Below, piece by piece: positions 14,648 through 27,140 of a stretch of 28,926 nucleotides of DNA. Location of the stretch: positions 1 through 28,926 of the IMG/VR virus record IMGVR_UViG_3300048839_000569. The stretch is one strand, 5' to 3'. A program made the translations under genes and the position numbers. The first letter of the stretch is position 1. Each line of letters begins with the position of its first letter. This DNA is from a virus. Below the pieces are notes generated by a model. The model was not told where the DNA came from. It did not search any database and was given only the letters and a program-made list of their open reading frames with translations.

Positions 14648-14722
14648 TGGTCGCGGTGGTCGGATTTGCACCGACGGCCTCCGGGTTATGAGCCCAGCGA
14701 GCTACTGCTGCTCCACACCGCA
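14648..14722 (-). tRNA. Initiator-like tRNA-Met (CAT) with altered elbow
   Basis: The 75-base molecule includes an encoded CCA. The stems pair fully, with a few wobble pairs: 7-bp acceptor, 4-bp D, 5-bp anticodon and 5-bp T stem. The loop CTCATAA carries anticodon CAT, and three G-C pairs flank it as in initiator tRNAs. The first acceptor pair is U1-G72 (initiators usually have an unpaired 1-72). Two unusual features stand out: the D-loop is only seven bases (AGCAGTA) and lacks the consecutive G18-G19, and the T-loop is TGCAAAT, so position 55 is G rather than U. Those are the bases that normally lock the elbow. It may be a functional variant, a mimic or a decaying gene. It lies first after a promoter. 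Confidence 0.8.
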
Positions 14723-22255: not shown

Positions 22256-22336
22256 TGTGCTATACTGTGGTCACACCGGGAAAAGCCTTCCGAAGAACCG
22301 CCCGAGCGCCGCCATCGCTCGGGCGGTTCGCTTTTT
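22256..22336 (+). ncRNA. Possible short plus-strand RNA, extended -10 to terminator
   Basis: TGTGCTATACT (22256-22266) is an extended -10. A 14-bp perfect hairpin (22295-22308 with 22316-22329) followed by GCTTTTT (22330-22336) is a strong rho-independent terminator on the plus strand. A transcript of about 64 bases is predicted, with no reading frame. The opposite strand is the gap between the accessory and packaging operons, so the hairpin might instead serve minus-strand transcription. Confidence 0.4.
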
Positions 22337-22679: not shown

Positions 22680-23165
22680 TTATACCAATTCGTCAAATTC
22701 AGCCCCTAGAGACAGGTCAATACCCAACAGCCGTGCGATCTCCTGAAGTTCGTCTATTCGGATCTGCCATTCAATCGCGGACATTTTCGCCTCGAATGCC
22801 ACGAGTGCAGAAGAAGCCTTGTCGTCAGCTTTGCGCCCTGACTTAAACACATTCGACTCGTGTAATGCCAACCGCCTGATCAAAGCAAGCCTAAGCCCTT
22901 CGGTGATCACCACAGGCGCATGCAACGTCGGCACGCCCGCGTAGGCCGGCGCGGTGTACAGGTTCAGCCCGTAGCCGCTGTATGCAGGGCCGAGCCGTTC
23001 GCCGAACAACCGCCGCTCACCGCTGTGCAGGATCTTCACCTCGCACCGTACCGTGTCGCCCTCGATCTCCGCGTCTGCGAGTGCCTCGCATTCGACGTTG
23101 CCTTGTGCCCCGCACTCCCAAAAGCGATCCCCGGACTTCAGGTTCTTCAGTTCAACCCGCTCCAT
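22680..23165 (-). CDS. Hypothetical protein, accessory operon
   Basis: In this 161-residue protein, residues ~1-55 are beta-rich (VELKNLKSGDRFWECGAQGN, ADAEIEGDTVRCEVKIL), followed by a Gly/Tyr-rich stretch (GPAYSGYGLNLY) and a charged helical C-terminus (SALVAFEAKMSAIEWQIRID). The opening DRFWECG-like segment resembles small beta-barrel domains of unknown function. GGA lies upstream of the ATG. No catalytic motif is visible. Confidence 0.75.
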   Translation of the reverse strand: MERVELKNLKSGDRFWECGAQGNVECEALADAEIEGDTVRCEVKILHSGERRLFGERLGPAYSGYGLNLYTAPAYAGVPTLHAPVVITEGLRLALIRRLALHESNVFKSGRKADDKASSALVAFEAKMSAIEWQIRIDELQEIARLLGIDLSLGAEFDELV

Positions 23166-23373: not shown

Positions 23374-24045
23374 TTATCGACGGGCATCCGACACCTCGCT
23401 CCAATGCGCCCCGTCGCGCTCCAGGTGCGTCACGGCACACCCGAAGCGATCCGCCAGCCAGAAGGCGGCCACGCGCCGGTGGCAACTATGTACGTCCTGG
23501 CAGCCGCAGAGCAGGATGGCCGGGCGCTCCTGGAGGATCGTGCGCAGTTCCGGCAGCGCCGCCTCGGGCCGCGTCAGGGACAGCGGCCAGCCCTCTTTGT
23601 AGTTCGGGTTGCCGAGCGCGCTCATGCCCACGTACGCGCCGCCCACGAGGGCGCGGAAGCCGTCCGGCCGCCACTGGGGTGCGCGGCTCCACGCCCGGTA
23701 GCGAATGTCCACGAGGACGGCGCCACGCTCCGCCACGAGCGCCTGAAGGGCCGCGGGCTTCCATCCGGTGTAGCCCAGCGTGTAGAGCTGGTGGCGCACC
23801 GGCGTGCGCGGCTCCCGGCGCGGCCCGCCCGGCACGTCCATCGTACGGAGCCATGCCCGGTCAGCCTGGTTCTGGCACACCCAGCACAGCACGCTCTCGG
23901 CCTGCCACTCGTAGCGCCGGTAGCAGTCCATGCAGAACGGCGTGCTGCACTGGGTGCAGCGCTGTCCAGGGTTGCCGCACGACGCGCATTCGGTGCCTGC
24001 GTCCAGTCCGTCGAGCAGATCGCCGGTGATGTCGAGAATGATCAT
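23374..24045 (-). CDS. Zinc-finger-DUF488 fusion protein
   Basis: In this 223-residue protein, residues 20-57 contain eight cysteines (C20, C23, C30, C33, C38, C41, C54, C57) in a RING/B-box-like spacing, probably two zinc sites. Residues ~87-210 fit DUF488: HQLYTLGYTGWKPAALQAL, VLVDIRYRAWSR, GLNPNY-like GNPNYKEGW, and the C-terminal CGCQDVHSCHRRVAA with conserved Cys/His. DUF488 proteins are of unknown activity, though their context often suggests nucleic-acid or nucleotide chemistry. A zinc finger could supply nucleic-acid or partner binding. The start overlaps the previous stop by four bases, so it is coupled to the DUF5131 cluster. Confidence 0.85.
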   Translation of the reverse strand: MIILDITGDLLDGLDAGTECASCGNPGQRCTQCSTPFCMDCYRRYEWQAESVLCWVCQNQADRAWLRTMDVPGGPRREPRTPVRHQLYTLGYTGWKPAALQALVAERGAVLVDIRYRAWSRAPQWRPDGFRALVGGAYVGMSALGNPNYKEGWPLSLTRPEAALPELRTILQERPAILLCGCQDVHSCHRRVAAFWLADRFGCAVTHLERDGAHWSEVSDARR

Positions 24046-24281
24046 GACGGAACCTCAATCGGTGAACCGTTCAGGTAGAGCGGCATGCCCTGGGCGACCT
24101 GATCCAGGGTCTTCATGTGATCTACGTCGTAACTGAGGGCACCCGGAAACTCTTCTTTGAGCGCCTTCAGCGCAAGGCCTATAGCCGATTCTTCCGAGTA
24201 CGCGTTTCGTATGCGAATGCCTGAAACGATCCCCCTCTCGTCTGGCCTTACAGTGATGAGCAGGATATGCGTCTGAATCAT
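24042..24281 (-). CDS. Small hypothetical protein, accessory operon
   Basis: The protein has 79 residues from the ATG at 24281, which overlaps the previous stop (ATGA). It opens MIQTHILLITVRPDERGIV and continues IRIRNAYSEESAIGLALKAL, a compact alpha/beta pattern. No family is recognised. It sits between a possible membrane protein and the zinc-finger-DUF488 gene, with four-base overlaps on both sides. Confidence 0.7.
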   Translation of the reverse strand: MIQTHILLITVRPDERGIVSGIRIRNAYSEESAIGLALKALKEEFPGALSYDVDHMKTLDQVAQGMPLYLNGSPIEVPS

Positions 24282-24619
24282 CCGAATACCCCCATCAGTC
24301 CAAGCACCCCGATCACGGTGAACAGCACACCAAACCCCAAAGCATACGGGGTGACGCGGGCAAGGAAACGCGCATGGGCATAGCCGGGGTGCCAGGGCCG
24401 CCAGCCGTAGGGGTTGCCGCGATCCCACTGGCGGTAGCGGCGCAGGTCGTCCAGCACTTGACGGGCGGCTTCGGCGATGAGTGCCCGCGTCTCTGCGTCG
24501 TCGGGCTGGAGCGCGGGCGGAAGGGGTGTAGGCTGCACCACGGTGCCCAGCGCCAACTCGATGCGGATGGCCGTCGCCAGTTCGTTGGCGTCCAGGTGGA
24601 TGCGCGGGGCGTCGCTCAT
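24278..24619 (-). CDS. Small protein with a C-terminal transmembrane segment
   Basis: This 113-residue protein has a charged, helical N-terminal two-thirds (NELATAIRIELALGTVVQ, LIAEAARQVLDDLRRYRQWD). The last ~24 residues are a hydrophobic segment (VTPYALGFGVLFTVIGVLGL) that would span the membrane once, putting the rest probably in the cytoplasm. It overlaps the DUF5131 gene in ATGA. A holin-like role cannot be excluded, but one segment and a large soluble domain make it weak. It may anchor the cassette's enzymes. Confidence 0.7.
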   Translation of the reverse strand: MSDAPRIHLDANELATAIRIELALGTVVQPTPLPPALQPDDAETRALIAEAARQVLDDLRRYRQWDRGNPYGWRPWHPGYAHARFLARVTPYALGFGVLFTVIGVLGLMGVFG

Positions 24620-25518
24620 GACGGCACCTGATCCCAGGTGCGCCCGTCGAGCAGGCGGCCGGCCGCCTTCTTGCCGACGCGCATCATGTACGTACCGTCA
24701 ACGTAGTCGTGATGTTCAGTCCACTGCTCACGGGACACGGTCTCCGGTTCCGCCCACTCGCCATGCTGCTTGAAGAAAAACGGTACCCCAGCGACGACAC
24801 ACTGATCTCGAATACTCCGGAACCAGTCAGGGTTCGGCGGGCGGGCCTTGGGGCCGCTCTCACCGCCCGCGATCACCCACTGAAGCATCGCCTCGTATCC
24901 GCATCCATCCGTGAAGCCGAACGCGTTCATGCCTGAACGGCCGACCGGATCGCCGTACATGGCCCGGTCGATATTCACCGGCCCGAGCAGCGGTTCCATA
25001 GAGAGAAAGCGAATAGGCGACGGCACTTCACACAAGTGAGGAATGCGCTCATCCGCTGCCTTCTGGTGCTCGGTGCTGACCCCATGCCAGATGTGGCGCG
25101 GGCCGAACTTGGAATAGCGGCGGTTCGTGTACTCCGCCATTCGCTGCGCCCGCTTCGTGAGCACCTGGAACGTATGCCAGGGCGCGGACTCCATCACCGT
25201 GTAGATCTGGTCGATCTGGCGGTCGGTCACGCTCTCGTGAAACAGGTCGCTCATGCTATTCACGAAGATGCGGCGTGGCCGCTTCCACCGGAACGGCAGC
25301 GTCAGGTTCGCGTCGTCCATGTTGATCACGCCCGTGAAGACAGCGCGCCCCGTGCTCACCCGCTTTGCGGTGCCCGCATACTTCGCTTGCCCCATGGCTT
25401 CCAGGCGCAGCGCCATGCCGGCGGCATAGCAGTTCAGGCAGCCCTCGCTCACCGGCGTGCAGCCGGCCAACGGATTCCAGGTCGCATCTGTCCATTCAAT
25501 GTTGCTACTGTCTCCCAC
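24616..25518 (-). CDS. Gp37/Gp68-family protein (DUF5131), radical-SAM-like cysteine motif
   Basis: The protein has 300 residues from the GTG at 25518; AAGGAG lies eight bases upstream, whereas a longer frame starts inside the previous gene. Residues 6-31 carry the family start NIEWTDATWNPLAGC then SEGCLNCYA, giving C20-x6-C27-x2-C30, which may bind a cluster. Other features are FVNSMSDLFHE (85-95), HIWHGVSTEH (142-151) and VIAGGESGPKARP (215-227). The family is spread among phages and has no established reaction; a radical-SAM-like chemistry is suggested by the cysteines and is an inference. It overlaps the membrane-protein gene. Confidence 0.9.
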   Translation of the reverse strand: MGDSSNIEWTDATWNPLAGCTPVSEGCLNCYAAGMALRLEAMGQAKYAGTAKRVSTGRAVFTGVINMDDANLTLPFRWKRPRRIFVNSMSDLFHESVTDRQIDQIYTVMESAPWHTFQVLTKRAQRMAEYTNRRYSKFGPRHIWHGVSTEHQKAADERIPHLCEVPSPIRFLSMEPLLGPVNIDRAMYGDPVGRSGMNAFGFTDGCGYEAMLQWVIAGGESGPKARPPNPDWFRSIRDQCVVAGVPFFFKQHGEWAEPETVSREQWTEHHDYVDGTYMMRVGKKAAGRLLDGRTWDQVPS

Positions 25519-25520
25519 CG

Positions 25521-25829
25521 TTACAACTCCTTGCTGTTCACGCCGAAGTGTGCCCACCCCGCAGCGGCGGCGGGCGCGCGCTGGCGCAGTGTCGCCCGGA
25601 GTTCGGGCGTGTCGTAGTTCGTCGGGAAGCGCACCATGTAGGGCTTCCCGTCCAGCGCTCGGCGCCATTCGCTCCCGTCCGTGTGCAGGCGGGTCACGGC
25701 GTTGGGCAGGTCAATGGTGCGCGGGCGCTCCGTGGCGTTCAGTCGAGCGATGCGCAGGCGCATCGAGACGCGCTGCACTGCCTGCACCCACATGCGGAGA
25801 CCACGCGGGTTATTTAGTCGAGACCACAT
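25521..25829 (-). CDS. Small hypothetical protein upstream of DUF5131
   Basis: The protein has 102 residues from the ATG at 25829, with GAGG six bases upstream; the longer frame begins inside the upstream gene. It is basic, with a Leu/Arg-rich first half (MWSRLNNPRGLRMWVQAVQR, MRLRIARLNATERPR), then a beta/turn part (GSEWRRALDGKPYMVRFPTN). The stop ends 2 bases before the DUF5131 GTG. No family is recognised. Confidence 0.7.
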   Translation of the reverse strand: MWSRLNNPRGLRMWVQAVQRVSMRLRIARLNATERPRTIDLPNAVTRLHTDGSEWRRALDGKPYMVRFPTNYDTPELRATLRQRAPAAAAGWAHFGVNSKEL

Positions 25830-25837
25830 CAGCAACC

Positions 25838-26089
25838 TCACGCCGTCGCTTGCTGCCCTGGAGCAGAGATCATCGGTGCCGTTTGATGACGGAAGAAATA
25901 CGCCGGACGCCCATCCGGCAGCCGCAGGTTCATCCGCTCCCAAAAATCGGGATCTCTTTCGTTCGCGTTTTCACTGTAGCCCGTCACGACAGACTGCACC
26001 CGCAGTCCTGCACCGCTTGTCCATTCCAGTGTGTCGCCGACCTGGATGGGCCGCCCGTTGCGGTCGGTGAATGGTTTAATAGCACTCAT
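25838..26089 (-). CDS. Small beta-rich hypothetical protein
   Basis: The protein has 83 residues from the ATG at 26089, with AAGGA eight bases upstream; the longer reading covers the hairpin leader. The content (GRPIQVGDTLEWTSGAGLRV, QSVVTGYS, DFWERMNLRLPDGR) looks like a small SH3-like barrel of the kind seen in phage accessory proteins. The gene starts ~24 bases after a hairpin repeated upstream of another gene in this operon. Confidence 0.75.
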   Translation of the reverse strand: MSAIKPFTDRNGRPIQVGDTLEWTSGAGLRVQSVVTGYSENANERDPDFWERMNLRLPDGRPAYFFRHQTAPMISAPGQQATA

Positions 26090-26113
26090 AGCAGTGATCC
26101 TTGCGTATGTGTA

Positions 26114-26142
26114 ACCTGGGAGCCGGCACAGCACCGGCCCCG
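26114..26142 (-). repeat. 29-base hairpin leader, copy 2
   Basis: The 29 bases match 27112-27140 exactly. On the minus strand GGGGCCGG pairs with CCGGCTCC (one G-U pair). It lies after the stop of the 311-residue gene and just before the ribosome site of the next. Its repetition in two neighbouring leaders suggests a processing or stabilising element. Confidence 0.75.
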
Positions 26143-27091: not shown

Positions 27092-27111
27092 ATGCTCCTC
27101 GGTGGTGGTTT

Positions 27112-27140
27112 ACCTGGGAGCCGGCACAGCACCGGCCCCG
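27112..27140 (-). repeat. 29-base hairpin leader, copy 1
   Basis: Identical to 26114-26142 and similarly placed, between a stop codon and the ribosome-binding site of the next gene (ATG at 27091). It ends about 20 bases before the start codon. Confidence 0.75.

Follow-up and report, generated by a model that had tools for sequence, protein, structure and literature searches.

Outside the locus studied here, DUF5131 and DUF488 belong to separate candidate defence pairs. DUF5131 pairs with a Three-Cys-motif protein, TcmP, in PADLOC systems PDC-M30/PDC-M41, and DUF488 (PF04343; PDC-M19A/M45) pairs with PDC-M19B. We found no reported biochemical activity for the DUF5131 family; a search of a 5.39-million-paper library returned no paper naming DUF5131, and literature searches gave little on DUF488 or TcmP. 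In 2023, Burroughs and Aravind are said to have grouped RapZ-C, DUF488 and DUF4326 and to have predicted DNA-end processing in conflict systems. Members of the related DUF4326 clade are predicted to act on the terminal phosphates of ADP-ribose derivatives (PMC9503650). The solved structures nearest to DUF5131 are those of spore photoproduct lyase (SPL), a DNA-repair radical SAM enzyme with the canonical CX3CX2C motif. In SPL, the Tyr immediately following the third of the cluster cysteines is part of a proposed radical relay, and the hydrogen atom donor is C140 (Gt) or C141 (Bs) (PMC3742179). Cysteine spacings other than CX3CX2C can also support radical SAM chemistry (PMC3742179).

The window analysed here is an IMG/VR virus record of 28,926 bp with a G+C content of 56-70%. 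Its terminase, portal-like, head and tape-measure genes lie on the minus strand throughout. Close relatives of the phage were sought in viral contigs using its terminase, portal and tape-measure proteins, and none were found. An operon spanning ~27945 to 22344 includes the following genes:

25838..26089, minus strand: 83-aa gene without a family, 8 nt upstream of the cassette
25521..25829, minus strand: basic 102-aa protein, without a homologue in phage records
25518 (GTG)-24616, minus strand: DUF5131 protein (Gp37/Gp68, PHROG 2045), 300 aa, beginning 2 nt past the preceding stop
24278..24619, minus strand: membrane protein, 113 aa, with a 4-nt overlap with the DUF5131 gene
24042..24281, minus strand: 79-aa protein, with a 4-nt overlap with the 113-aa gene
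23374..24045, minus strand: DUF488 protein, 223 aa, with a 4-nt overlap with the 79-aa gene
22680..23165, minus strand: 161-aa gene without a family, the next well-supported operon gene downstream of the cassette

The first-pass annotation had presented the five genes from 25829 to 23374 as a coupled cassette whose products act together. The minus-strand run is spaced as described: one junction is a 2-nt gap and the other three are overlaps of 4 nt. All the features ascribed to it are present too, namely both families, the cysteine motifs and the membrane segment. The last of these is a single C-terminal segment in the 113-aa protein (residues 94-112; mean hydropathy 2.3). A longer start for the DUF5131 ORF at 25668 was rejected, as the homologues begin at the GTG at 25518. 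As with the basic protein, searches of the phage collection returned no homologue of the 113-aa or the 79-aa protein. The limits of the five-gene set are arbitrary because the 83-aa gene stops 8 nt short of the basic gene and ORFs continue after the DUF488 gene; the operon therefore begins further upstream than the cassette. Moreover, the structural module has at least four 4-nt overlaps of its own (1285-3156/3153-7622, 8618-9136/9133-9492, 9133-9492/9489-10133 and 10276-10614/10611-11306), so such coupling is normal for this phage and is no special sign of shared function.

Four DNA elements were recognised in the window:

28019-27991, minus strand: sigma-70-like promoter, TTGACT-N17-TATACT, with 10/12 consensus matches
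27992-27971: operator-like 22-nt perfect palindrome, CTTGTCATATGCATATGACAAG, overlapping the promoter
22295..22329: GC-rich, terminator-like hairpin of 14 pairs, separating the end of the operon from the terminase genes
14648-14722, minus strand: tRNA gene with a CAT anticodon between structural genes, possibly tRNA-Met or tRNA-Ile2

The cassette had also been credited with an operator-like promoter of its own. The sequence match and its palindrome exist, but they lie ~2 kb upstream of the cassette, where the promoter would drive the whole early operon. The region holds two promoter-like sites, where chance alone predicts 1.1. The near-consensus promoter overlapped by the 22-nt palindrome suggests a dedicated early-operon repressor; no gene for one was recognised in the window. 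Separately, a 48-nt intergenic element occurs at 26095-26142 and 27093-27140 (81% identical), preceding two successive operon genes. Its core is GGGGCCGGTGCTGTGCCGGCTCCCAGGT, with a short hairpin.

The DUF5131 protein is a clear member of its family, matching PF07505 with an E-value of 5.8e-95 (317.9 bits; curated cut-off 28.9) and PHROG 2045 at 5.5e-104. The motifs CX6CX2C and IEWTDATWNP are common to the window protein and ~80 phage relatives; its operon neighbours are unusual for the family. In an alignment of 58 sequences, comprising the window protein and 57 viral relatives, the CX6CX2C cysteines (C20, C27 and C30), Y31 and C240 were invariant (58/58), as were D91, K122, E220 and K250. 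The strict conservation of C20/C27/C30-Y31, D91, K122, E220 and C240 suggests an active site. TIGR04471, which describes radical SAM mobile pair protein A, matched the window protein below its cut-off (4.9e-7), and relatives reached 5.6e-19.

A structural model built from the 58-protein alignment (pLDDT 89.3; pTM 0.87) is a TIM-type barrel with cysteines directly after strands 12-14/17-19. Six SPL chains headed both fold rankings, with a best Foldseek E-value of 1.5e-3 (prob 0.99) and VIA Z-scores of 12.7-13.2 (rmsd 3.0-3.1 Å over ~204 residues). Viperin, RlmN, SuiB and LIAS followed at Z ~10-11, and the first 34 VIA matches were radical SAM enzymes only (Z 8.8-13.2). DUF5131 and SPL both carry a Tyr directly after the third cysteine; they differ in that DUF5131 has CX6CX2C in place of the canonical CX3CX2C. 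A manual alignment of SPL FEAACTSD with DUF5131 FVNSMSD places the SPL donor cysteine at DUF5131 position 88, which is Ser in 49/58 and Ala in 9/58 sequences; the preceding position, 87, is Cys in 10/58. The hydrogen-donor cysteine of SPL thus seems to be missing; with Ser or Ala apparently in its place, DUF5131 is better not named an SPL. At the profile level, a Pfam scan of the window protein returned PF07505 alone at E<=1, with no match to the SPL family PF20903, and the comparison with three SPL sequences by hhalign, a weak test, was not significant. A MAFFT alignment of the two families was misaligned.

These differences bear on whether the barrel performs radical chemistry at all. The cysteines might instead bind zinc or a structural cluster in a nucleic-acid-binding protein or a methyltransferase regulator. 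The non-classical spacing, the Ser or Ala at the donor position and the absence of a sequence-profile link to SPL favour such a role. Nevertheless, we regard it as unlikely, given the strict conservation of C20/C27/C30-Y31, D91, K122, E220 and C240 and the precedent for chemistry with other spacings (PMC3742179). DUF5131 is most likely an unconventional radical SAM enzyme that acts on nucleic acid.

The genomic company of DUF5131 was examined in the 80 closest viral and 80 closest bacterial loci. By the curated family PF00145, C5-cytosine methyltransferases were present in 17/50 virus records with DUF5131 versus 4/50 with DUF488. A larger enrichment (29/80 vs 9/120) was set aside as biased, the underlying models having been seeded from DUF5131 neighbours. 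A methyltransferase lay within ~3 kb of DUF5131 in all four annotated phages inspected (LunaStella, prophiT36-2a, Jambalaya and vB_LagS-V1), in which DUF5131 occupies early regions near RecE/T, RepA, RuvC or methyltransferases. None of the ten operon proteins of the window scanned by profile was a DNA methyltransferase. One phage record annotates an ASCH gene beside DUF5131; an ASCH identity for a recurrent DUF5131 neighbour was not confirmed by Pfam. As a further observation, a second, weakly recognised radical SAM protein is encoded two genes after the DUF5131 gene of one virus (L274:2280-2984; PF04055, E 0.005), and also matches peptide-maturase-like models at 1e-4.

In bacteria, the short form of DUF5131 had an adjacent, co-directional TcmP gene (TIGR04474) at 29 loci. 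By contrast, the same model found TcmP in 0/80 viral DUF5131 loci. The window protein matches the DUF5131 components of this pair, PDC-M41B and PDC-M30B, at 2.1e-78 and 3e-75, but 0/10 operon proteins of the window match TIGR04474.

The 223-aa DUF488 protein likewise belongs to its family (PF04343, E 1e-8; 36.3 bits against a cut-off of 22.2). The domain occupies residues 85-211 and contains the GY-G, D-R, LGN and C-x7-CHR motifs. The last of these, C180 and C188-H-R190, is invariant in 31/31 aligned DUF488 sequences. The window member differs from the family in two respects. First, the near-invariant Glu182 is Cys, giving C180-x-C182. Second, the eight N-terminal cysteines form four CxxC pairs (C20/23, 30/33, 38/41 and 54/57; residues 20-57), an arrangement consistent with a two-zinc cross-brace finger. 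No close relatives of this ZnF-DUF488 were found in viral or genome contigs; the matches in phages and plasmids were to distant DUF488 domains. Its PADLOC matches were marginal (2.3e-5, for PDC-M19A, and 5.5e-5), and none of the ten operon proteins scanned was the PDC-M19B partner needed for a PDC-M19 pair.

The DUF488 model had a mean pLDDT of 75.8, reaching ~90 or more over most of the domain; the zinc-finger region was of low confidence, and the fold search covers the DUF488 domain only. The best VIA match was a diphthine synthase domain (Z 9.0 over 109 residues, barely above background), and Foldseek (best E 0.014) listed tetrapyrrole methylases, an RNA 5'-phosphatase and dual-specificity phosphatases. 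The protein shares a catalytic-Cys architecture with the DUF4326-like clade of the rhodanese-phosphatase superfamily, and its fold matches to diphthine synthase and dual-specificity phosphatases are weak. Membership of this superfamily agrees with, but is not proven by, the weak fold scores and the reported grouping with DUF4326. ZnF-DUF488 is most likely a cysteine-dependent enzyme acting on nucleotides or nucleic-acid ends.

The search for viral DUF488 genes used a DNA pattern for L-L-C-x7-C-H-R, which detected >110 DUF488-like genes (L172-L291), mostly of the short 'LAPT' type (DUF488-N3a). A ParB-like gene lay within 1.5 kb of the DUF488-like gene in 10/113 loci, and tandem pairs of different DUF488 genes occur in several viruses (L176, L255, L259, L264, L289 and L291).

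Shared function of the cassette would be expected to leave DUF5131 near DUF488 elsewhere, and essentially no such co-occurrence was found outside this phage. In samples that comprise the nearest DUF5131 relatives, many of them fragmentary records, DUF488 was present in 0/50 virus records (whole records searched with PF04343 and its sister PF22751, DUF488-N3a) and in 33/50 bacterial genomes, where the closest same-contig pair was ~25 kb apart. Among Actinomycetota, 36/296 genomes had a DUF5131 match, 34 of them above the family cut-off; 13 of these 34 also encode DUF488, none of them nearby. Overall, 83 distinct DUF5131-bearing bacterial genomes contained no DUF488 gene closer than 10 kb to DUF5131, one genome (G055) being common to the nearest-relative and Actinomycetota samples. 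In the reverse direction, 2/50 virus records with a DUF488-type gene encode DUF5131. The two genes are separated by ~8 kb in L274, with replication and terminase genes between them, and by ~6 kb in L294. By these three counts (0/50, 2/50, and no pair closer than 10 kb in the 83 genomes), DUF5131 and DUF488 are not a recurrent pair.

The two families do meet at one locus in temperate phages of Gordonia. Nymphadora and Jablanski are near-identical, sharing 92% identity over 1.8 kb that encodes integrase, HTH and metalloprotease genes. Directly after this shared segment, the two phages carry different pairs:

Nymphadora, L002:3974-5271: DUF488 (PDC-M19A) and a PDC-M19B gene
Jablanski, L003:3001-4870: DUF5131 (PDC-M30B/M41B) and a TcmP gene

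The pairs are thus alternatives beside the integrase and metalloprotease genes. The occupation of one prophage locus by either pair supports related biological roles for DUF488 and DUF5131, which may be in lysogeny-linked conflict, and not joint action. The window operon shows neither partner.

These data allow the cassette to be weighed as a single nucleic-acid- or nucleotide-modifying counter-defence machine comprising DUF5131, the membrane protein, the 79-aa protein and ZnF-DUF488. The shared operon with its three 4-nt overlaps, the candidate-defence status of both families, their common locus in the sister Gordonia phages and the two other viruses that encode both at 6-8 kb would fit such a machine. 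It is nonetheless improbable: DUF488 is absent from the 50 DUF5131 virus records and from within 10 kb of DUF5131 in the 83 genomes, the Gordonia genes are alternatives and not companions, overlaps are frequent throughout the phage, and no homologues of the small linking genes turned up in the phage collection. Joint action of the cassette genes is thus not supported, and what had been read as a joint machine is probably an ordinary neighbourhood. A sequential scheme, in which DUF5131 would modify or repair bases and ZnF-DUF488 would then process ends or nucleotides on phage DNA, merging the two candidate defence systems, seems very improbable indeed.

The Gordonia loci also raise the question of whether the genes serve prophage-borne anti-phage defence, such as superinfection exclusion, instead of the phage's own replication. 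PADLOC candidate-defence models match both DUF5131 and DUF488, and the Gordonia pairs stand beside integrase and immunity genes. Against this, the usual partners, TcmP and PDC-M19B, are absent from the ten operon proteins scanned; other annotated phages keep DUF5131 near the RecE/T, RepA, RuvC or methyltransferase genes noted above; and the scans of window proteins recognised neither an integrase nor a repressor. We consider such a defence function to have a low probability.

What survives of the proposal, chemistry on nucleic acids or nucleotides or a part in conflict, is its plausibility for each protein taken singly; a shared role finds no support in co-occurrence. A nucleic-acid role is plausible for DUF5131 because its fold resembles that of a DNA-repair radical SAM enzyme and it keeps company with methyltransferases in phages. 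A conflict role is plausible because PADLOC includes both families in its candidate defence systems. Each of the two proteins is probably an accessory enzyme acting on nucleic acids or nucleotides. The explanation we favour, with reasonable though not high confidence, is a tailed-phage early/accessory operon that holds two unrelated accessory enzymes, a predicted radical SAM DUF5131 and a predicted cysteine-dependent ZnF-DUF488. They would share one transcript because the phage packs its genes tightly, and not as the two components of a conserved machine.

In the favoured explanation, C20, C27 and C30 of DUF5131 would hold a [4Fe-4S] cluster at which SAM is bound and reductively cleaved. The resulting 5'-deoxyadenosyl radical would attack a base in nucleic acid, the likeliest being a pyrimidine of phage or invading DNA. 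ZnF-DUF488 would be a rhodanese-phosphatase-like enzyme that depends on a cysteine and is recruited by its finger to nucleic acid or to a partner protein; its predicted substrate is a nucleotide, a sugar-phosphate or a nucleic-acid end.

DUF5131 is widespread in phages and bacteria, and its SPL-like fold, invariant Cys, Tyr, Lys and Glu residues and association with C5-cytosine methyltransferases point to a testable class of reaction. The swap between the Gordonia phages indicates that DUF488 and DUF5131 modules fit one prophage niche, linking two uncharacterised candidate defence systems.
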